The position numbers and the translations under genes were made by a program. A DNA stretch of 64,000 nucleotides from Vasconcelosia minhoensis LEGE 07310. GTDB lineage: Bacteria; Cyanobacteriota; Cyanobacteriia; Phormidesmidales; Phormidesmidaceae. The stretch spans positions 1 through 64,000 of the forward strand of contig NZ_JADEXG010000007.1 in the NCBI RefSeq assembly GCF_015207255.1, written 5' to 3'. The notes below the pieces were generated by a model, which ran no database searches, was not told where the DNA came from, and worked only from the letters and a program-made list of their open reading frames with translations. Positions 40,502 through 49,717 of the stretch are shown here, one piece after another (the stretch's first letter is position 1; every line of letters starts with the position of its first letter).

Positions 40502-41242
40502 ATGAGTTCAAAAGACTTAGACATTGGCGAGCAAGCCATCAGCAAAGCGGCAGAAGCCGGATTAGAGTCTCAAATGGATCAGGCAGAAGACTTAGATGTC
40601 GCTCTCCACACCGAAGCGACGGATTTGGCCCAGGGCAAGCTGAAAGCGGTCGAAGTTGAAGGTGAGGGGCTGGTTGTCCAAAACGAACTGCGAACCGATG
40701 AGCTGAAGCTCAAAACCGGGGAAGTGAAGATCAACCCGATGCAGGCAGTGATGGGTGAGATTGAGCTGGAGCGGCCGACTGAAGCAGAAGCCTACGCGGT
40801 GCTCAAGGCCGAGGATATCAATCGGGCATTTGACTCCGACTATGTTCGAGAAAAGCTGCGGGGTCAGAAGGTTACTCTGCCCTCAGAAGAGACCGTGTCA
40901 ACCGATGCCCAAAAGGTGAGCTTTACGATTCCAGAGGCGGGCCGGATTGCCGTAGATGCCGATGTGATGATTATCGAGCAGGTTGAGACTAAGCACATTG
41001 CGTTTACCGCTGTGCCTGAGCTTGTCTCCGGCGGGCATCAGGTGACCCTCACCGACATGCAGTACGACGATGCTGCTAACGACATGCCAGAACTCACCCA
41101 GGCCCTGATTGACACCACCGAAGAACTACTCGACCTGCGCAACCTAGAGTTGGACAAGATGTCGCTTAAGTTTGACCGGCTGGAGGTGCAGCCTGACCAG
41201 CTAGTGATTCAAGCCCAGGCAGAGATTCGAGCCTTCAGCTAG
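40502..41242 (+). CDS. DUF2993 (LmeA-like lipid-binding) protein
   Basis: DUF2993 proteins are widespread in cyanobacteria and actinobacteria; the mycobacterial LmeA binds phospholipids. The 246-residue protein has the family pattern: DLDVALHTEATDLAQGKLKAVEVEGEGLVV, then a strand-rich core with INPMQAVMGEIELERPTEAEAYAVLKAEDINRAF, and a C-terminal MSLKFDRLEVQPDQLVIQAQAEI. There is no signal peptide, so it is cytosolic or peripheral on membranes. It is acidic. A second, more basic paralogue is at 61024-61821. Precise function is unknown. Confidence 0.85.
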   Translation: MSSKDLDIGEQAISKAAEAGLESQMDQAEDLDVALHTEATDLAQGKLKAVEVEGEGLVVQNELRTDELKLKTGEVKINPMQAVMGEIELERPTEAEAYAVLKAEDINRAFDSDYVREKLRGQKVTLPSEETVSTDAQKVSFTIPEAGRIAVDADVMIIEQVETKHIAFTAVPELVSGGHQVTLTDMQYDDAANDMPELTQALIDTTEELLDLRNLELDKMSLKFDRLEVQPDQLVIQAQAEIRAFS

Positions 41243-41272: not shown

Positions 41273-41755
41273 TCACTGAACCTTAATCAGCACCAGATCG
41301 CCATCGATCTGAGCTTCATAAGATCCTAAGGGCTCAGCGGCGGGACCCTCAGCGACGGTGCCGTCTGGGTTGAACTTTGACCCGTGGCAGGGACAGGCAA
41401 ATAGGCCTTCCTGCCACTCGACACCGCAGCCCTGGTGGGTGCACATCGAGTTTAGGGCGACGATGCCTTCCGGGTTGGCTGGGTCGCGGATGACGACTAC
41501 TGGCCCGGCGATGAAGCCTTTTTGGGCGAGGGAGCCGTTGGCATCCAGTTCGGCGACGGTTCCCAGGGCGGCAAATCCATCCTCGCGGATGCTGTCATCT
41601 ACCTTAGGAGTGGAAGATTCTGACTCGGCTGGGGCCTCAGTCTCTGAGGTCGTTTCTGAAGGCGACTCTTTGGGAGTGCAGGCCGCGATCGCAATTGGCA
41701 GCGAAGTCGCCATGAAGCCCGCACCGACCCAGTTGATAAACTCACGACGTTGCAT
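41273..41755 (-). CDS. Rieske 2Fe-2S protein, Tat and lipoprotein type
   Basis: A 160-residue exported Rieske protein. The first residues carry a twin-arginine motif (QRREFI), a hydrophobic stretch, and a lipobox-like AIAAC at about residue 26. It may therefore be exported folded and tethered by lipid. A Ser/Glu/Thr-rich linker follows. The cluster ligands are CTHQGC and CPCHGSKF, the two Cys-His pairs plus the disulfide cysteines of high-potential Rieske proteins. It differs from the b6f subunit PetC, which has an N-terminal membrane helix and is usually paired with petA. It is third in an operon with the cytochrome c assembly genes (10-base gap), so it likely carries electrons in the multiheme module. 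Confidence 0.9.
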   Translation of the reverse strand: MQRREFINWVGAGFMATSLPIAIAACTPKESPSETTSETEAPAESESSTPKVDDSIREDGFAALGTVAELDANGSLAQKGFIAGPVVVIRDPANPEGIVALNSMCTHQGCGVEWQEGLFACPCHGSKFNPDGTVAEGPAAEPLGSYEAQIDGDLVLIKVQ

Positions 41756-41765
41756 GGGTTATCCT

Positions 41766-43472
41766 CTAGCTACCGAACGGATTGGGGCTCACGGCTGAAT
41801 CGGGTTCGCCTGATTTGATCAACCAGCCTTGATAGCGGGCGGCAGTGATCAGCACAAACAGCAGGTCTAGCCCCACGACGCTAGCAATCACCAGCTCCGA
41901 GCCGCCGGTGCCGAAGCCATAGCTATGCAGTCCAGTCCCCAGCACGAAATTCACGCCGTACCAGGCCATCAGCACCGCGTTAAAGGCGACGACGCTGGCG
42001 ACGCTGATGCCAAAGTTGCCAATCCAGCCGACCAGCCGACCGTGCAGCGGCACCAGATAGCACAGCAGGGCAATCAGCGCCCAGGTTTCCTTCGGGTCCC
42101 ACCCCCAGAAGCGGCCCCAGGAAAAGTGCGCCCAGATGCCGCCAAGGATAATGCCGGTCGTCAGCAGCAGTACGCCTACCTGCAAGACCCGATAGTTGAG
42201 CTGGGAGAGCAGCTGAATTCGCGACTTGGCCTGAGGCGTAAACAGATAGCTGCCCAGGGCGACGTGGCCCAGCCCCAGCGCTAGCGCAAAGCTGGCGTAG
42301 CTCAGAGCAATCGTAGGAACGTGGATGCTCAGCCAAAAATTATCGCGCAGCACCGGCACCAGCGGCGAGATGCTGGGGTCCAGGACGGCGGGTAGGCTGT
42401 CAGCCAGAATCAGACACACCACCGACAGCGGAGCCGCCGCGAGCAGATAGTATTTAGAGCGGTAGATCAGTTCAAAGATGAGCGCGATCGCGGCAATCCC
42501 AAATCCGACCCAAACCACTGACTCATACATATTGGTCACCGGTGGACGCCCGGCGATCTGCATCCGCAGCCAGAAGCCGTAGCTCTGCACGGCGACCCCA
42601 GCGACAAAGAGGCCAATGGCGCTCCAGTAGAGTTCGAGCGGCTTAATCCACAGCGCCGCTAGCATGAAAATAAAGGCAATGCCGTAGAGCTGCCAGGCTT
42701 TAGCAAAGGGGTGAAAGTGGTTGAAGAAAACCTCGCGCCGCATGACGCTATCGGCGGGATAAACCTCCGGGCTGAGCGCCGTTAGTCCCGACTTTAGCGA
42801 CGCCGCTAGGGGAGCCAGCAGCGGCAGGTGACGGGTGCCGGACAAAAACGTTTGCTTGATCGTGGCGAAGTTGGCCAGCAGCGGGGCGACGGATTCTGCC
42901 GGATAGAGGCTCTGGCCTTCAGTAATGCCGACCCATTTGCCTTTGATATCGGTGGGGTGGGGGACAATTGCGATCGCGTCATCGCTCACCGTCTCCAGCA
43001 TCAGCGTCAGCCGGTCTTCCAAGGTAATCGCCTCTCGCTGGTCGCGGGTCAGGTCTTCTCCTCTAATCTCAACCTGATGCGCCTCTCGAACGACAGCGCC
43101 GAGAGCCTGATTTCGCATCAGTGTTTCGAACGAAAAATGCTTTTGATCCGGGTCGAGCCCTACCTGTTCTTTTAACGGACGATAGCTCAACAGCACAAAC
43201 GGCTCTTCGTTCCAATTGCGGTTGTTTAGCCACAGCGACAGAAAAGTTTCCATCGAGCTTTCTCGAATGCCGTCGTGTAGATAAGTGGTAGATCCGTGGA
43301 TTTTTGCCACCGTCTCCTGAGCCACCGTATCCAAAGGTTTTTTACGCCCGCCCTGCTGCACGGTCATCGTCTCCAGCGCGTCCAGCGCAGAAGGTTGAAA
43401 CTGGCTGAGGGGAGCAGCGATAAGCAGCAGTCCCAAACAGAGCCCAATCGCAAATTTTAGAAGTTTCATCAT
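41766..43472 (-). CDS. ccsA: System II cytochrome c biogenesis protein CcsA, long form
   Basis: CcsA with CcsB carries heme across the membrane and joins it to CXXCH cysteines. The 568-residue protein has an N-terminal helix (about 5-23) and an extracytoplasmic region of about 250 residues that opens with VQQGGRKKPLDTVAQETVAKI. The CcsA domain with about eight helices follows. It includes the heme-presenting WWD motif in WGRFWGWDPKETWALI and nearby histidines. Usual cyanobacterial and plastid CcsA is about 320-350 residues and lacks the extension. The longer form resembles CcsA of Bacteroidetes and deltaproteobacteria with multiheme cytochromes. It is 36 bases after ccsB and 10 before the Rieske gene. 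Confidence 0.9.
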   Translation of the reverse strand: MMKLLKFAIGLCLGLLLIAAPLSQFQPSALDALETMTVQQGGRKKPLDTVAQETVAKIHGSTTYLHDGIRESSMETFLSLWLNNRNWNEEPFVLLSYRPLKEQVGLDPDQKHFSFETLMRNQALGAVVREAHQVEIRGEDLTRDQREAITLEDRLTLMLETVSDDAIAIVPHPTDIKGKWVGITEGQSLYPAESVAPLLANFATIKQTFLSGTRHLPLLAPLAASLKSGLTALSPEVYPADSVMRREVFFNHFHPFAKAWQLYGIAFIFMLAALWIKPLELYWSAIGLFVAGVAVQSYGFWLRMQIAGRPPVTNMYESVVWVGFGIAAIALIFELIYRSKYYLLAAAPLSVVCLILADSLPAVLDPSISPLVPVLRDNFWLSIHVPTIALSYASFALALGLGHVALGSYLFTPQAKSRIQLLSQLNYRVLQVGVLLLTTGIILGGIWAHFSWGRFWGWDPKETWALIALLCYLVPLHGRLVGWIGNFGISVASVVAFNAVLMAWYGVNFVLGTGLHSYGFGTGGSELVIASVVGLDLLFVLITAARYQGWLIKSGEPDSAVSPNPFGS

Positions 43473-43508
43473 GATGTTTTAAATGTGGTGAATCAGGAAA
43501 AGGGCCTG

Positions 43509-45320
43509 CTAACGTCCCAAAAAGAAACCCATGATTGGAATCGTCCCAACTGATTCTCGTTCCTCTACTTCAGGCATCCCCAATAAATCCGCAACAACCC
43601 TCAGCTTCTTCGCGACCGAGCGGCCATAAAACATCGTGCCAACGCCCACAATCACCATCAGTGAACCCAGCCAGGTCAGCCCCGTCACCCACCAGGGTTC
43701 GCGCTTCACCTGCAAAGTAGACTGACTCAAATCGCCTGGATTCCACGACGCCTGAGCAATTTTCCAGCCCTTGAACCAGGTGGGATGATTCATCCAGACC
43801 CGACGGTCGGCCCGCTCGCCCGTGTGAGGTTCCATCAGGGTGACGGCACTGGTCCACATGGCGACCGACTCGCTGCCTTCGTTACGCTCGACGATAAAGT
43901 CGTTGAGCTTCACCGCGAAGGGCAGCTGCAGCAGTTTTGGGCTAAAGGCGACGTACCAGTCACCCGCTGGCGTGCTCACGGTCGTCGGTTCGCCCCAGGG
44001 CACCCAGACCGGCTCCTCAGCCCCCACTGCAACCAGCAGTGCGGGCTCACCGCTGTCGGCAGGAGCCGTTTCCGGCAGCGGCACCGTTGCTCGCTTGACC
44101 TGAGCCTGGGGCAGGTATTCGGCCAGGGTAATTTCAAAATCAGCCCAGCCTGGCGCGATCGCTTCGCCGACCGCCAGCGGCCCTGACTTGAACCCCTGAG
44201 ACGCGCGAGCGGCGTAATGCAGGCTGCCCTGCGCATCTACGACGACGCGGAAAAAGGCGTCTGGCTCAGGAGAGACAGGGGCCTCGTAGCGGATGTCAGC
44301 CGCGATGGGCCGGAGGAAATCTGGCGGCTGGACGGCGGCTCGAACGGGCTCAAAGGCGGGATTGCTAAACACAAACCAGCGCTCTGTCGTTTCACCGTTG
44401 GCCAGTTCCAGCTGCACCGCTGGATTGCGGAACTGGGGGGAGGCGGTTTCGGGCTGGCGGTTGCTGTCTAGACGAAAGTCAGGCCAGAAGCCTAACAGCT
44501 TCAGCTCCCCAGAGCCGATTTGGCTGGTCTGCCCAAGCTGCGATCGCACATCTATCGTCCGCGATACCCCCGCCCAGGAAACCTGCAAGGTACCCCAAGG
44601 ATTGTTTGGGTTCTCTGCTGGAGCTGTCAACGCCTGTCGCAGTGCCTGCGGGGAGTCCGCTTTGACAATCTGTAGCTCAGCGGGGCCAATGTCGATCTGA
44701 CGGTAGGCGGCGGGTGCGGCGGCCAGCCAGCGGTCTAGGGTTTGACCCATGCGATCGCTACTCAACCTCAGCCGCACAGCAGGATTATCGACGGCAGCCC
44801 CGGTCTCAAAGTGAACCGTTTTAATCGCCCGATCGCTGTAGCCCAGTAGGGAAAGATTTCCCACCCGATTAGGAACGACCGTACCATCAGACTTAATAAA
44901 CAGGGATGCCTGCTGTGGCTCCTGGCCCGGCGCGGCGACTTCTAGGAGATCGCCTTCAACTCGCAGGCTGCTAACCGGTCCGGCATCGGTGCGCGCCAGC
45001 AGCATTCCCTCGACGCTCAGGTGAATGACCGCCGCCGAGCCCGCGATAATCACGACCAGACCCCAGTGGGTAATGGCAAACCCCAGCTTTCGCGCCCCCC
45101 GCCAGGGATAGCGTGACAGGGTGGAAATCCCTAAATTCAGCGCGAGTAAAAACATCAAAGCGCCGAACCAGGGGCTCTTATAAATTTCCTGCTGCACCAC
45201 CGCTGAACCAACTTCGGACTCGTAAAAGGTGGTGAAGATCAGGATAGTCGCGATCGCGCCTAGCAGCGGCACTGCTAATTTAATCGACCCTAAAAATTGA
45301 CCTAGGTGATTAAGTTTCAT
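43509..45320 (-). CDS. ccsB: System II cytochrome c biogenesis protein ResB/CcsB
   Basis: ResB/CcsB is the large partner of CcsA; together they form the cytochrome c synthetase. The 603-residue protein has three N-terminal helices (about 13-34, 50-70 and 83-104, the last holding THWGLVVIIAG), then a large extracytoplasmic domain of about 430 residues. A fourth helix (WWVTGLTWLGSLMVIVGVG) lies near the C-terminus before a short cytoplasmic tail. Order and length fit ResB. It begins the operon ccsB-ccsA-Rieske and is transcribed away from the globin and multiheme cytochrome genes. It is probably a second copy dedicated to them, since cyanobacteria usually encode another Ccs pair; that copy is not in this window. 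Confidence 0.88.
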   Translation of the reverse strand: MKLNHLGQFLGSIKLAVPLLGAIATILIFTTFYESEVGSAVVQQEIYKSPWFGALMFLLALNLGISTLSRYPWRGARKLGFAITHWGLVVIIAGSAAVIHLSVEGMLLARTDAGPVSSLRVEGDLLEVAAPGQEPQQASLFIKSDGTVVPNRVGNLSLLGYSDRAIKTVHFETGAAVDNPAVRLRLSSDRMGQTLDRWLAAAPAAYRQIDIGPAELQIVKADSPQALRQALTAPAENPNNPWGTLQVSWAGVSRTIDVRSQLGQTSQIGSGELKLLGFWPDFRLDSNRQPETASPQFRNPAVQLELANGETTERWFVFSNPAFEPVRAAVQPPDFLRPIAADIRYEAPVSPEPDAFFRVVVDAQGSLHYAARASQGFKSGPLAVGEAIAPGWADFEITLAEYLPQAQVKRATVPLPETAPADSGEPALLVAVGAEEPVWVPWGEPTTVSTPAGDWYVAFSPKLLQLPFAVKLNDFIVERNEGSESVAMWTSAVTLMEPHTGERADRRVWMNHPTWFKGWKIAQASWNPGDLSQSTLQVKREPWWVTGLTWLGSLMVIVGVGTMFYGRSVAKKLRVVADLLGMPEVEERESVGTIPIMGFFLGR

Positions 45321-45867
45321 TTAAACTTTTTGAAAACAATTAAAGTCGCAAAAAACAGAAAGCTGCTCCCTCATGAACTGTTGAACTGCCCTAATAAACT
45401 GTTTGAACCGTATCCTCTCTAAATATCAAAGGACATTTTGTATCCAAAGTTGCAAAGTGCTCCTGAATCATTCAATATTCGGATTTTTATTATCGAATTA
45501 ATGCATGTCAGCCCGAAAATGGATCGTTTTGGACGCGCCCAAAACGGTTAAACCTTTGGCAAATCTAGAGAAAATAAGCGCTATAGGATATTTGAATTTG
45601 GCGAATGACAGAAATATGTAATTTCGGCTTTTGTAAATGCAAAATTAGCATATCAGAATTATTTTTTGTAGCTTTGTACACAAAAACTGAGCTGGGATCG
45701 CCATAGTTTTATGTCATAGGGCGTATAAATGAATCGTAAATTTATACCGCCACAGCTTTAATCAGCTGATTCCGATGTGCAATTAGCGAGTGATGACATA
45801 GTTTGGATACTTTCCTATCTAAAAGATTTTTTCGCTATTTTTATTATTCAGTGGAGCGTAATTGAGC
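45321..45867. promoter_or_regulatory. AT-rich divergent control region of the multiheme module
   Basis: About 550 bases between the ccsB start and the globin start, clearly AT-richer than its surroundings and without HIP1 sites. It holds the near-repeat AACTGTTGAAC / AACTGTTTGAAC (45376-45386 and 45397-45408), the palindrome at 45535-45556, a TTTTGT/ACAAAA inverted repeat (45664-45685), and GTATAAAT/ATTTATAC arms (45723-45730 and 45740-45747). It most likely contains both divergent promoters and regulator sites. No FNR, NtcA or Fur consensus is certain. Confidence 0.55.
45535..45556. promoter_or_regulatory. Candidate operator palindrome
   Basis: Perfect 8-base arms CGTTTTGG and CCAAAACG around the spacer ACGCGC, near the middle of the divergent region. 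No T run follows on either strand, so a terminator is unlikely. The length and symmetry suit a dimeric regulator that could control both the assembly operon and the cytochrome genes. Confidence 0.45.
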
Positions 45868-46317
45868 ATGTCTTTGAACGTAGAGCTTTTAGAGCAGAGC
45901 TTTGAACTAGTTAAGCCAAAAGCAGACGAGCTTGTGACCAGTTTTTATCACAACTTATTTACCGACTATCCAGAGGCAAAGCCGCTGTTTGAGCATTCGG
46001 ATATGAGCAAGCAAAAGCAAATGCTGAAAGGGGCGCTGGTCATGGTAGTTGAGAATTTGCGCAACCCCGAGGTGCTGAACAGCTCCCTCAAAGGGCTGGG
46101 AGCCCGCCATGTTAAATATGGGGCAATGCCTGAACACTATCCTTGGGTTGGCAATAGCCTGCTTAAAGCACTAGGCGAATATGCCGGAGAAGCCTGGACT
46201 CCTGAGCTAAAGGCAGCTTGGGTAGGAGCCTATGGGGCGATCACTGAGATTATGCTCGATGGCGCAGACTACTCCAAGCAATCTGTTCAGCTCGATAGCT
46301 CAGCAAATATATCTTAG
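45868..46317 (+). CDS. Single-domain bacterial globin
   Basis: A 149-residue heme protein resembling Vitreoscilla hemoglobin and the globin domain of flavohemoglobins. Tyr27 (SFYHNLF) fits position B10, Phe41 (PLFEH) fits CD1, and His81 (LGARHVKYG) is the proximal iron ligand. The distal E7 region carries glutamines and lysines. No FAD/NAD domain follows, so a separate reductase is needed if it works as a nitric oxide dioxygenase. The ATG at 45868 is preferred to a TTG at 45862. It lies 38 bases before the multiheme cytochrome genes, which suggests a link to nitric oxide, oxygen or redox sensing. Confidence 0.88.
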   Translation: MSLNVELLEQSFELVKPKADELVTSFYHNLFTDYPEAKPLFEHSDMSKQKQMLKGALVMVVENLRNPEVLNSSLKGLGARHVKYGAMPEHYPWVGNSLLKALGEYAGEAWTPELKAAWVGAYGAITEIMLDGADYSKQSVQLDSSANIS

Positions 46318-46355
46318 GCCGACGGTTTTCTCTTACGACTGGTTTCTCAGTTTAG

Positions 46356-47003
46356 ATGGTAGCTAACTCCAACCGACGTTTTGACCTGAGGAAAGGGCTG
46401 AGTCTCAGGGTGGCGGTCATCCTGGTGATGGTCATCCTGGTGACCTGGTTCTCGGCTGCTTTTGCGCTGGAGCAAAAGCAAATATTTATGCCAGGGGAGA
46501 CATCGGTCGGTCACTATCTGTTTGATACCTCCTGCGCCTCTTGCCATGAAGGATTCAAGCCGGTTACGAACGAAACTTGCAACCGCTGTCACGAGGCCGA
46601 GCTAGCGGAGGATGCGCACGGGGCGACCAAGTTTCGAGATCCTCGTTGGGCAACCTATCGAGACAATATCGACGTGCTGACCTGTACTGCCTGCCATAAC
46701 GAGCATGTCCATATGTTTGGCCGGGGCGTGCACCTACAGCCAGACCTCTGTATGGTGTGTCATGAAGAGCTGACGGTGTCTCAGCTCAAAAGCCATGAGG
46801 GCTTTGCCGCCGATGGCTGCTGGACTGCAGGCTGTCACAATTTTCATGACCATCGGACGATTTCTACCGGTTTTCTGCGCCAGAATATGGGCGAGCCCGC
46901 CATGCTGCCCGTGCAGCAGCTGCCTGACCGAAATGTGACGACAACGATAGAAACGGCCCCTGCTCCCAACCTGAAGCAGGAGTTTCTAGGAGGTAGCACG
47001 TGA
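46356..47003 (+). CDS. Multiheme cytochrome c with four CXXCH and one CX4CH motif
   Basis: A 215-residue exported electron carrier. A basic N-terminus and one hydrophobic helix (about 18-37) form a signal peptide or membrane anchor. Heme motifs are CASCH (60-64), CNRCH (75-79), CTACH (110-114), CMVCH (132-136) and CWTAGCH (155-161), the last with four residues between the cysteines. Extra histidines (NEHVHM, GVH, SHEG, FHDH) can give bis-His ligation. The layout is like small tetraheme/pentaheme cytochromes that link quinol oxidation to a periplasmic reductase. The stop overlaps the GTG start of the next gene by 4 bases, so both are co-translated. Confidence 0.9.
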   Translation: MVANSNRRFDLRKGLSLRVAVILVMVILVTWFSAAFALEQKQIFMPGETSVGHYLFDTSCASCHEGFKPVTNETCNRCHEAELAEDAHGATKFRDPRWATYRDNIDVLTCTACHNEHVHMFGRGVHLQPDLCMVCHEELTVSQLKSHEGFAADGCWTAGCHNFHDHRTISTGFLRQNMGEPAMLPVQQLPDRNVTTTIETAPAPNLKQEFLGGST

Positions 47004-47797
47004 AAAGGCTACTGGCTGTTTTAATCATGCTGCTAATGGCCATCGGCACGGCTCTACCCGCTGAGGCCGTCAGCGAATCCGAGCTGGATCAGATCACAGA
47101 ACGCTGGCAAATCAGTGTCCACGCGCTCAATGAGGTGAACTGCGCCAGCTGTCATCAGGAAAGTGAGTCTAACGCCTTTGTGGCCAACCCCAGCTATGAA
47201 AGCTGTCAGTCCTGTCACGAAGACCCCGTCGATACCTTCTTACTAGGCAAGCACGGGATTCGACTGCTGGAAGGGGAAAGTCCGCTGACTCCGGCGATGG
47301 CCCGGCTGCCGATGAAGCATGACGCCTTGACTAAGGAAATGAACTGCAATACCTGTCACGACGTGCATTCTGTGGACACGGTGCAGGCTGCGGTTGATGC
47401 CTGCCTGACCTGTCACAACGATACCCATTCCCTTACCTATGAAAATTCTAAACATGCCGAGCTGTTTTTAGCGACAAAAGAGCTGCCTCGGCCCGGGCCG
47501 ACCGCCGTCACCTGCGCCACCTGCCATCTACCGCGAACTGGCTTTGATCAATCCGATGGCACCACGCTGGTCAAGGTGAATCACAACAATACCTACACGC
47601 TCAAACCTCAGGATCGGATGGTGGGCGAGGTCTGTATGAACTGCCATGGGGTGGAATATGCCTTCAACAGTATTTTTGACCCTGAGCTGGTCAAAGCCAA
47701 TTTTGACCGACCGCCAGCGCTTTCATTGGAGACCTTTGACATGATGAGAGCGGCTGAAAAACTAAGGTCGGGCAATCCTTCTGATGAGGCAGAGTAA
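47000..47797 (+). CDS. Six-heme cytochrome c
   Basis: A 265-residue exported protein with a clear signal peptide (MKRLLAVLIMLLMAIG, cleavage probably after PAEA). Six CXXCH sites are visible: CASCH (48), CQSCH (69), CNTCH (116), CLTCH (135), CATCH (172) and CMNCH (212). The segments ACLTCHNDTHSLTYENSKHAELF and TCATCHLPRTGF resemble parts of the hydroxylamine oxidoreductase and octaheme tetrathionate reductase families, but the protein has fewer hemes and no assured catalytic heme. It starts with GTG, overlapping the previous stop, and is likely the partner of the five-motif cytochrome. Whether it is an enzyme or a carrier is open. Confidence 0.88.
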   Translation: MKRLLAVLIMLLMAIGTALPAEAVSESELDQITERWQISVHALNEVNCASCHQESESNAFVANPSYESCQSCHEDPVDTFLLGKHGIRLLEGESPLTPAMARLPMKHDALTKEMNCNTCHDVHSVDTVQAAVDACLTCHNDTHSLTYENSKHAELFLATKELPRPGPTAVTCATCHLPRTGFDQSDGTTLVKVNHNNTYTLKPQDRMVGEVCMNCHGVEYAFNSIFDPELVKANFDRPPALSLETFDMMRAAEKLRSGNPSDEAE

Positions 47798-47897
47798 TGG
47801 CTGCTTTCTATCAGAATTGTTCACCCGTTCGCAACGTTTCGCCCATGCGTTGTGAATGGACTAAATACAAACAAATCTATACCAGGAGAACCTTTCA

Positions 47898-48557
47898 ATG
47901 ACTAGCACAAGTTGGATACAGCGGTTTCGCACTAGGATAGTCGCTCTATTTGCCCTTGCAGCGGTAGTCTGCTTTACTACCGTTGCCTGCAGCGGGGGTA
48001 GTTCTACTACCGAGGCAGGACCCGCGATCGCGCCTGACCTGGTCGCCGACTACATTCATACGGTACTGGCCGCTGACCGGACCGCCTACACTCAGCATGT
48101 GGTCAACCGGGTCAAGACCCTCGAAGGTAAATCTAAAGAGGATGGTGTCTTACCGGTCGAGTCCACCGAAGCGTGGCAGCAAACCGATGGCGTGCCGCTA
48201 CCGGCCCAGATGTTTCGCCTAGGCTCAGAAATTGCCAATGAGTCCGGCTACTTCACCTACAATCTGATCTCGCCCTGGAATATCAACGATAGCCAGGGGC
48301 CTAAGAGCGAATTTGAGAAAGAGGCCGTTGAAGAAATCGTCGCTACGGGTGAACCCTATAAAGGGTATCAGGAGGTAGGCGATCAGGCTTACTACTCGGC
48401 GCTTTATCCGGATACGGCAGTTGCTGAAGCCTGCGTCAGCTGCCACAACACCCATCCGGTTCACCTAGAGCGCTACCCCGATAAGGTATTTGAGATGGGA
48501 GATGTGATGGGCGGCATCATTATCAATATCCCGGTTGAGAGTATGCCTTCTACCTGA
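47898..48557 (+). CDS. Tll0287-like (DUF3365) monoheme c lipoprotein
   Basis: A 219-residue exported protein. Its signal peptide ends in the lipobox FTTVAC (Cys31), so it is probably lipid-anchored. The Tll0287-like domain, a PAS-like fold with one covalent heme, starts at about residue 43 (APDLVADYIHTVLAADRTAYTQHVV) and carries CVSCHNTHP near the end. Such domains are thought to sense redox state, oxygen or nitric oxide, often attached to signalling proteins; this one stands alone. AGGAGA before the ATG is a good ribosome site. An imperfect hairpin (47828-47856) lies in the 100-base gap before it. The gene ends at a strong terminator. Confidence 0.88.
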   Translation: MTSTSWIQRFRTRIVALFALAAVVCFTTVACSGGSSTTEAGPAIAPDLVADYIHTVLAADRTAYTQHVVNRVKTLEGKSKEDGVLPVESTEAWQQTDGVPLPAQMFRLGSEIANESGYFTYNLISPWNINDSQGPKSEFEKEAVEEIVATGEPYKGYQEVGDQAYYSALYPDTAVAEACVSCHNTHPVHLERYPDKVFEMGDVMGGIIINIPVESMPST

Positions 48558-48572
48558 CGGAGCCTTGCTCAG

Positions 48573-48616
48573 AAACAGGAGTATCAATCGAAAATTGCAA
48601 TGCTCCTGTTTTTTTT
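48573..48616 (+). terminator. Rho-independent terminator after the Tll0287-like gene
   Basis: Arms AAACAGGAG (48573-48581) and CTCCTGTTT (48603-48611), with an inner CAAT/ATTG stem, followed by eight consecutive T (48609-48616). This is a textbook terminator that ends the globin-cytochrome transcript and separates it from the cytochrome b-like and thioredoxin genes. Confidence 0.9.
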
Positions 48617-48644
48617 CTATTTTCCTCTAGGTCTTTAAAAGCCC

Positions 48645-49238
48645 ATGCAGCCTAAGTTCTCTACCCTGATTATGCTTACCCTGATCTGCGCTGCTTTGCT
48701 GACCCCATTTGCAGTGAGCTCGGTCTATCTTGATGCACTAAGAGAACGCTCTGTAGAACTGCACCAGTTCATGCGGGGGGAAATTTATAAACAAGCGACC
48801 GGTTTCACCGCGCTGTTTTTTGTGCTGGTGGAAATGCTGCTCAGCTTAAGAAAGCGCAGCCGCAGCTGGTTTGTAAAAGTCAAAATTCCGGGTTCAGTCT
48901 TATTCTGGCGCAGCCTGCATATTTTTGTCGGGGTAGGGCTGCTGGCGGTCGTGCTGGTGCATACCCTGGGCTCGAACGGGCTTAACTACAATGCGGTTTT
49001 TCTATGGATGTTCTTTGCCGTCACCCTTTCGGCCCTAGTCGGCGTAGTGGCTGAAACGGGGGTTCTAGAATCTTCGCGGAAGTTTTTTAGCCTGGCGGGG
49101 AAGTCCGAAGCGGGCGTGGGTAAGGGCACCCTGATTCGCAACATGCGGGCCGTTTGGCTGCCGACCCATATCTTTTTGGTGAGCGTGTTTACCCTAATGC
49201 TGGGGGGACATATTTTTCTAGCCTATTATTTTCAGTGA
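48645..49238 (+). CDS. Small membrane diheme cytochrome b-like protein
   Basis: A 197-residue protein with about five membrane helices (roughly 9-28, 52-68, 86-108, 116-137 and 172-196). Two helices each hold a histidine pair with 13 residues between: His92 with His106, and His175 with His189. This is the spacing by which cytochrome b and ferric-reductase-like proteins bind two stacked hemes across a membrane. I infer a quinol- or thiol-linked electron path to the exported cytochromes. It may instead be related to MsrQ-like heme proteins. The stop overlaps the start of the thioredoxin gene (TGATG), implying a joint role. Confidence 0.75.
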   Translation: MQPKFSTLIMLTLICAALLTPFAVSSVYLDALRERSVELHQFMRGEIYKQATGFTALFFVLVEMLLSLRKRSRSWFVKVKIPGSVLFWRSLHIFVGVGLLAVVLVHTLGSNGLNYNAVFLWMFFAVTLSALVGVVAETGVLESSRKFFSLAGKSEAGVGKGTLIRNMRAVWLPTHIFLVSVFTLMLGGHIFLAYYFQ

Positions 49239-49717
49239 TGACTGCGATGGCTGCTGCGAAAGAACAATTCCCTAGAAGAAGGCTGACCGCTGTTGCGGCA
49301 ATCCTGATCGCTGGGCTGCTGACGGTGCTGCTGACGCGACCGGCAGAGACGGCGGTGAGCTTTACGCCCCTGTCCGGGCTGATGACGCTCAAGGCAACGG
49401 CGGCTGAGGCGGTGCCCTATGAGGTCGCGATCGCGAACCCAAAACCCACCCTCATCGAGTTCTACGCCGACTGGTGTACCACCTGCCAGGCGATGTCGCC
49501 AACCGTGGCCGCCCTGCATCAGCAATATGCAGAGCGGCTCAACTTTGTCATGCTCGATGTCGATCGGCCCCAGTGGGCGTCCCAAGTGTCTGACTATGGG
49601 GCTTCCGGCGTTCCTCAGTTCACGCTGTTGGACTCAGAGCAGCAGGTTGTCAAAACTTGGGTCGGCAAAGTTCCCAAGGCTGTCTTCAAGACTGTTTTCG
49701 ATCAAATTTTAGGCTAG
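49238..49717 (+). CDS. txlA: Membrane-anchored thioredoxin, TxlA/HCF164-like
   Basis: A 159-residue protein with an N-terminal membrane helix (about 18-37) and a thioredoxin domain with active site ADWCTTCQAMSP, followed by LNFVMLDVDRPQW and the cis-proline loop GVPQFTLL. TxlA and plant HCF164 keep the cysteines of apocytochromes reduced for heme attachment, so the gene fits the cytochrome c assembly theme of this region. I chose the ATG at 49238, overlapping the previous stop. A longer frame from 49154 would overlap the upstream gene. The normal partner CcdA is not nearby, and the upstream cytochrome b-like protein might supply electrons instead. Confidence 0.88.
   Translation: MTAMAAAKEQFPRRRLTAVAAILIAGLLTVLLTRPAETAVSFTPLSGLMTLKATAAEAVPYEVAIANPKPTLIEFYADWCTTCQAMSPTVAALHQQYAERLNFVMLDVDRPQWASQVSDYGASGVPQFTLLDSEQQVVKTWVGKVPKAVFKTVFDQILG

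Follow-up and report, generated by a model that had tools for sequence, protein, structure and literature searches.

Accounts of cyanobacterial electron transport do not usually include multiheme cytochromes. What, then, is the role of a compact gene cluster in Vasconcelosia minhoensis LEGE 07310 that encodes two of them? The cluster lies in a 64,000-nucleotide stretch of this genome (contig NZ_JADEXG010000007.1, positions 1 to 64,000; hereafter the window). It consists of a leftward CcsB-CcsA-Rieske operon (45320 to 41273) and a rightward set from 45868 to 49717, which runs from a globin through a pentaheme cytochrome c, a hexaheme cytochrome c, a Tll0287-like lipoprotein and a predicted diheme cytochrome b (CytB) to a thioredoxin (Table 1). 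A first-pass annotation, made from the letters alone, had described it as a self-contained electron-transfer module with its own cytochrome c maturation genes. All open reading frames (ORFs) and motifs were verified where it had placed them, except for the start of the thioredoxin, and profile searches confirmed the family assignment of every gene but CytB. Based on the gene set, the number and motifs of the hemes, their predicted ligands, the co-inheritance and the promoter, all read from sequence, we tentatively favour one function over the others. The module would be an NtcA-induced electron outlet, leading from a diheme b-type to multiheme c-type cytochromes and served by a dedicated System II heme ligase. 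We rank this reading first, with a probability of about 0.4.

Of 390 cyanobacterial genomes searched, 37 from at least seven families have the hexaheme cytochrome, and the intact module of some ten genes is present in about one in ten cyanobacterial genomes. Two classes of CcsA are distinguished. The short class, the housekeeping CcsA, occurs in nearly every genome (E about 1e-23), and the long class, to which the window's protein belongs, in 36, nearly all at E<1e-200; one long match (G202) is a contig-end fragment. Long CcsA and hexaheme are found together in 34 genomes (Fisher p=5e-43; the Fisher values given here are descriptive, as the genomes are not independent and no phylogeny correction is applied). 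Where the two disagree, the cause is a contig end or an incomplete genome (G210, G346, G388 and G188) or, once, a decayed locus (G150). The roughly 30 loci fetched from other genomes, mostly with 40-88% protein identity, share one gene order: globin (one to three domains), pentaheme, hexaheme, Tll0287-like protein, CytB and thioredoxin. Since the same genes recur there in near-identical order, the block in the window is more than a chance arrangement. The Ccs block is placed divergently, co-directionally or a few kilobases off. Among the fetched loci, the thioredoxin was not found in g110 and g117 of one family and the Rieske gene not in f29, f5 and f26-g110. The first-pass annotation had proposed co-occurrence in related genomes as the test of its claim; the test was run, the gene set does co-occur, and the claim of a co-inherited module with System II genes of a lineage distinct from the housekeeping CcsA withstood it.

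Pairwise protein distances between module genes correlate with r=0.76-0.92, and a concatenated tree requires 8 label changes for 8 family groups, the minimum being 7. Because the distances correlate and the tree follows the families, the module looks old and mostly vertically inherited, with many losses. Plasmid-borne spread was considered and rejected, as no plasmid match was found and the tree points to descent within families. Two decayed copies are also informative. In L067 the globin, pentaheme, hexaheme and Tll0287-like genes are all lost and CcsA is split by a stop; transposase-like ORFs (judged from their translations) replace the lost genes and interrupt the pentapeptide gene. In L083 CytB from residue 110 onwards, its second half, is fused by a deletion to residue 5 of CcsA; this CcsA can still be aligned without a break over residues 5-564. 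In these two cases only, loss of the multihemes is accompanied by broken partner genes, which supports one shared function. Two further members belong to the module. A pentapeptide-repeat protein, often of exactly 308 residues, is found in the same cluster in 28 loci, and a ChaN-type (PF04187) heme-binding lipoprotein adjoins the module in 16 loci, about half of them (for example L003:13237-14130), the window's not included. Both members, like the promoter described next, had been overlooked in the first-pass annotation.

Nitrogen control of the globin operon is strongly supported by a predicted NtcA-type promoter. The canonical NtcA-activated promoter, carried by nirA among others, combines GTAN8TAC with a TAN3T -10 box, and the GTN10AC core is the most conserved part of the site (PMC3898017). 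GTAN8TAC was found upstream of the globin in 19 of 28 regions versus 1.7 in dinucleotide shuffles, and the N8 spacing alone is enriched while neighbouring spacings are not. The full arrangement GTAN8TAC-N22-TAN3T is present exactly in 11 of the 28 regions (0.03 in shuffles) and with at most one core mismatch in 22 (0.93 in shuffles). We also compared the loci with 232 background regions, each the 500 bp in front of another ORF of these contigs. Exact matches occur in 13 of 31 loci versus 1 of 232 background regions (p=8e-13), and matches with at most one mismatch in 24 of 31 versus 5 of 232 (p=4e-23; both without phylogeny correction). The sole exact background match belongs to a gene at L003, 1193-2743, read as nirA from its sequence. 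The window copy has the arrangement of an NtcA-activated promoter (GTAN8TAC, about 22 nt, TAN3T) with one core mismatch. Sites for Fur, CRP, RpaB and FNR were looked for in the upstream regions and were not convincing, and neither was TTGN8CAA (14 of 28 regions versus 8.5 by chance).

The two multiheme cytochromes look like wires and not like reductases. The pentaheme has five motifs, as annotated at first, and the fifth is not a CXXCH: four are CASCH, CNRCH, CTACH and CMVCH, and one is a CX4CH, CWTAGCH. All five, with CWT[A/G]GCH, are found in 30 of 30 orthologs, together with five near-invariant non-motif histidines (H53, H88, H117, H147 and H164). The hexaheme has six CXXCH in all complete orthologs and six such histidines (H41, H85, H123, H143, H152 and H195). 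As the number of distal histidines equals the number of hemes in both proteins (5/5 and 6/6), all 11 hemes are likely to be bis-His ligated, and a reductase site is not apparent. Nor do the proteins resemble the NrfA/HAO enzymes, having CX2CH and CX4CH motifs only and no NCBIfam model over cut-off, and the pentaheme has no PF03264 match that would make it a quinol dehydrogenase of the NapC/NrfH type. The module shares with the NrfHA and NrfBCD systems a pentaheme with further multihemes and, probably, a dedicated lyase alongside. It differs from them in having no CX2CK, no NrfA model over cut-off and no evident open heme, and the profile similarity is weak.

The Rieske lipoprotein has a Tat-like RR, a lipobox Cys26 and the cluster motifs CTHQGC and CPCHGS; R3, R4, C26 and the cluster ligands are near-invariant in 21 orthologs. 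It scores far below the b6f cut-off and CytB matches no Pfam family, so that the pair does not classify as part of a cytochrome bc1 or b6f complex. In one module copy (L052:11793-12986) two Rieske lipoprotein genes are adjacent.

CytB has five predicted helices. H92/H106 and H175/H189 are located on two of them, the members of each pair 14 residues apart, and positive loops follow helices 2 and 4. The four histidines and nearby W/R residues are invariant in 26 orthologs, and the helices are seen in an AF2 model (pLDDT 77). A diheme b-type membrane protein beside the multihemes, as the first reading of the locus had proposed, is consistent with a transmembrane electron path. Geobacter-type Cbc quinol-oxidising complexes likewise combine a membrane diheme cytochrome b with multiheme cytochromes c and an iron-sulfur protein. 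This likeness is one of composition, and the module differs by its Rieske lipoprotein, globin, own Ccs genes and NtcA-type control. The non-cyanobacterial loci L004 and L005 show loose multiheme similarity only, except for one CytB relative. It is found in L004, a proteobacterial metagenome-assembled genome locus (SZAS-19), has the same H-x13-H pairs (43% over 51 residues) and directly precedes a large multiheme cytochrome. L004 differs in having an NAD(P)H-flavin reductase and c554-type cytochromes, and no Ccs, globin or Tll0287 partner was seen in the stretch. The flavin reductase, c554-type cytochrome, CytB relative and multiheme occupy L004:6432-11971, with an Amt-like gene nearby.

The enzymes for heme attachment are of the System II type. 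Residues 36-542 of the long CcsA align over nearly the whole length with residues 407-925 of Helicobacter hepaticus CcsBA (PDB entry 7S9Y), including the N-terminal GGRxKP region and the WWD motif. WGWDPKETW aligns with WGWDSKETW, and H384, H477 and H516 align with H761, H858 and H897. This alignment places the long CcsA in the lineage of fused CcsBA proteins. CcsB matches the N-terminal half of 7S9Y and is the sole match in the genome at E<=0.001. The pair thus has what defines a CcsBA synthetase, a cytochrome C assembly domain with WWD motif and histidines and a ResB/CcsB partner (PF05140), and it differs from the Helicobacter protein in being split into two genes. Wolinella offers precedents of System II lyases dedicated to unusual heme motifs (PMC12285233). 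As with nrfI, the synthetase adjoins a cytochrome with an atypical heme motif; unlike NrfI and CcsA1, the neighbour's motif is CX4CH and not CX2CK or CX15CH, and the hosts are cyanobacteria which retain a housekeeping CcsA. The CcsB-CcsA pair is probably a dedicated NrfI-like lyase for this CX4CH, because its CcsA is of the 7S9Y lineage and is co-inherited with the multihemes, the housekeeping CcsA persists and every pentaheme has the motif. The thioredoxin, with a near-invariant WC..C active site, was correctly recognised at first and its start was not. The ATG at 49238, which overlaps the preceding stop, is the true start, and the TTG at 49154 is too far upstream.

Two proteins of the module are close to known families and depart from them in specific ways. 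The globin has the conserved B10 Tyr, E7 Gln and F8 His of flavohemoglobin (Hmp). It consists of the globin domain only (the model match spans 9-135 of 399) and has no reductase domain. Most orthologs have one to three tandem domains and a C-terminal transmembrane anchor, while the window globin is soluble. In L045, L047 and L050 a second, different globin of about 175 residues lies between CytB and the thioredoxin; it matches the window globin at 44-46%, and its C-terminal tail is unusual. The Tll0287-like protein matches PF11845 with 64.6 bits versus a family cut-off of 24.1, and CXXCH is present in all orthologs. Like Tll0287 it is a stand-alone single domain. In contrast to Tll0287, with its His/Cys heme, it has no cysteine for an axial ligand, none being found in the mature protein beyond the CXXCH motif and the lipobox Cys in 33 of 33 orthologs, and it belongs to a multiheme operon. 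The invariant His67 is a candidate for the axial ligand. This is judged from the absence of Cys and not from an alignment to Tll0287, because PDB searches with the single sequence and with a profile gave nothing useful. The PF11845 paralog in the same genome is a HAMP-type sensor and was of no help.

These features can be combined as follows. Cyanobacteria become over-reduced when starved of nitrogen, a state that electron sinks relieve (PMC4390884). NtcA would switch the module on when nitrogen runs short. CytB, with two stacked hemes, would be the transmembrane step, probably taking electrons from the plastoquinol pool and passing them to the membrane-anchored pentaheme, from where they would reach the soluble hexaheme. 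The monoheme Tll0287-like lipoprotein and the Rieske lipoprotein may act as additional carriers. The CcsB-CcsA pair and the thioredoxin would attach the hemes, probably including that at the CX4CH site, and the globin may deal with O2 or nitric oxide (NO) on the cytoplasmic side. The module would then likely be an outlet for excess reductant while nitrogen limits growth. The quinol donor, the flow direction, the terminal acceptor and the physiological role are what we infer for it.

Several points weigh against this outlet. No donor or acceptor enzyme was identified, and a general sink would be expected to be spread wider than about 10% of genomes. That CytB is a transmembrane two-heme cytochrome b is predicted from its topology and the spacing of its histidines; neither Pfam nor NCBIfam has a family for it, no PDB sequence matches it, and its model has no fold match. 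The predicted structure of the hexaheme (pLDDT 48) is unusable. The NtcA-type promoter is predicted, and in the window copy the one mismatch falls in the core, though GTN10AC is intact. NtcA is active beyond starvation too, for example during growth on nitrate. The larger claim, an undescribed NtcA-regulated branch of electron transport with at least 12 covalent hemes plus two of b type, a still unnamed family of diheme cytochromes b, a System II synthetase dedicated to CX4CH and a role as nitrogen-limitation outlet, is possible but doubtful in this full form.

The main rival is NO or nitrite chemistry through the globin, which we consider rather unlikely. With NtcA in control, during growth on nitrate or at low nitrogen, a membrane-tethered globin would destroy NO or reduce nitrite or hydroxylamine, the cytochrome chain would feed or drain its electrons, and the Tll0287-like lipoprotein would sense or bind NO. 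The NtcA-type promoter fits this, and so do flavohemoglobin-type globins with conserved B10 Tyr and E7 Gln, in up to three copies and usually tail-anchored. Signalling Tll0287/Cache-heme domains bind NO, but a stand-alone Tll0287-type protein is a redox carrier and a poor NO binder (PMC12889525). The module's protein, lacking the Cys ligand, could be more open to ligands than Tll0287. A denitrification partner was sought in NirK and rejected, as NirK was found in 0 of 80 genomes; no free heme site is evident in the multihemes, and a cytoplasmic globin leaves 11 exported hemes unexplained. The link to nitrogen suggested at first is now supported, through the promoter and not through a nitrogen-oxide reductase.

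Of the other functions suggested at first, a sulfur role found nothing in its favour, and extracellular electron transfer is without direct evidence. In the latter, electrons would travel from the multihemes across the outer membrane, with minerals, partner cells or electrodes in mats as recipients. The composition resembles quinol-to-multiheme modules of metal reducers, and weak profile matches link the hexaheme to MtrC/MtrF-like and DmsE-type domains. An MtrB/PioB porin match was found in 0 of 38 module-bearing genomes, with the control genomes likewise silent; the module has no outer-membrane or secreted large cytochrome, and the hexaheme signal is only Sec. We regard this function as improbable, and iron or heme handling as more so, both being weaker than the NO/nitrite alternative. 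In iron handling, by reductive uptake or heme salvage, the multihemes would reduce Fe(III) outside the membrane. The ChaN-type lipoprotein beside 16 module copies would suit it; ChaN is absent from the window locus and about half of the others, and the upstream regions have an NtcA-type and no Fur-like site. Support of nitrogen fixation under NtcA, by lowering O2 through the globin and respiratory electrons or by supplying electrons, has the lowest probability of all. Within the window's family, nifD is present in 12 of 19 module genomes versus 7 of 25 others (p=0.02, kinship not corrected). There is no nifD match in the window's own genome, which is 100% complete, nor in the near-complete module genomes G057, G098, G156 and G168, and as a general role nitrogen fixation is largely refuted by them.

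Table 1. Features of the module in the window, with strand and supporting evidence.
Feature	Position	Strand	Evidence
Rieske [2Fe-2S] lipoprotein	41273-41755	-	PF00355, E=6e-12
Long CcsA-type cytochrome c synthetase subunit, 568 aa	41766-43472	-	PF01578
CcsB/ResB-type partner, 603 aa	43509-45320	-	PF05140
Predicted NtcA-type class II promoter, GTAGCTTTGTACAC - 22 nt - TAGTTT	45668-45709	+	Consensus from PMC3898017
Single-domain globin, flavohemoglobin type	45862/45868-46317	+	PF00042, E=2e-18, and flavohemoprotein model
Pentaheme cytochrome c, N-terminal membrane anchor or signal	46356-47003	+	Five heme motifs
Hexaheme cytochrome c, Sec signal peptide	47000-47797	+	Six CXXCH
Tll0287-like (heme Cache) monoheme lipoprotein	47898-48557	+	PF11845, E=2e-17
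CytB, predicted five-transmembrane-helix diheme b-type cytochrome	48645-49238	+	Four His in two H-x13-H pairs
Membrane-anchored thioredoxin, TxlA/HCF164/ResA-like	49238-49717	+	PF00085, E=1e-18; active site WCTTC
Pentapeptide-repeat protein, 308 aa	50118-51044	-	PF00805; co-conserved with module

An LmeA-like (PF11209) gene at 40502-41242 of the window adjoins the Rieske gene and lies outside the conserved block.

In the open-licence literature on multiheme cytochromes in combination with cyanobacteria, NtcA or Leptolyngbya, no description of the module was found; it may have been described elsewhere before. The promoter names an explicit physiological condition for the module, and the Ccs pair makes it a test case for the substrate specificity of System II. 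The engineering of multiheme wires into phototrophs is now attempted with Geobacter parts (PMC12983203), and the module, if our reading is true, would be a natural multiheme wire in phototrophs. An old module under a nitrogen regulator would then add a branch to the map of cyanobacterial electron transport, and dedicated hardware would tie photosynthetic redox balance to nitrogen status.

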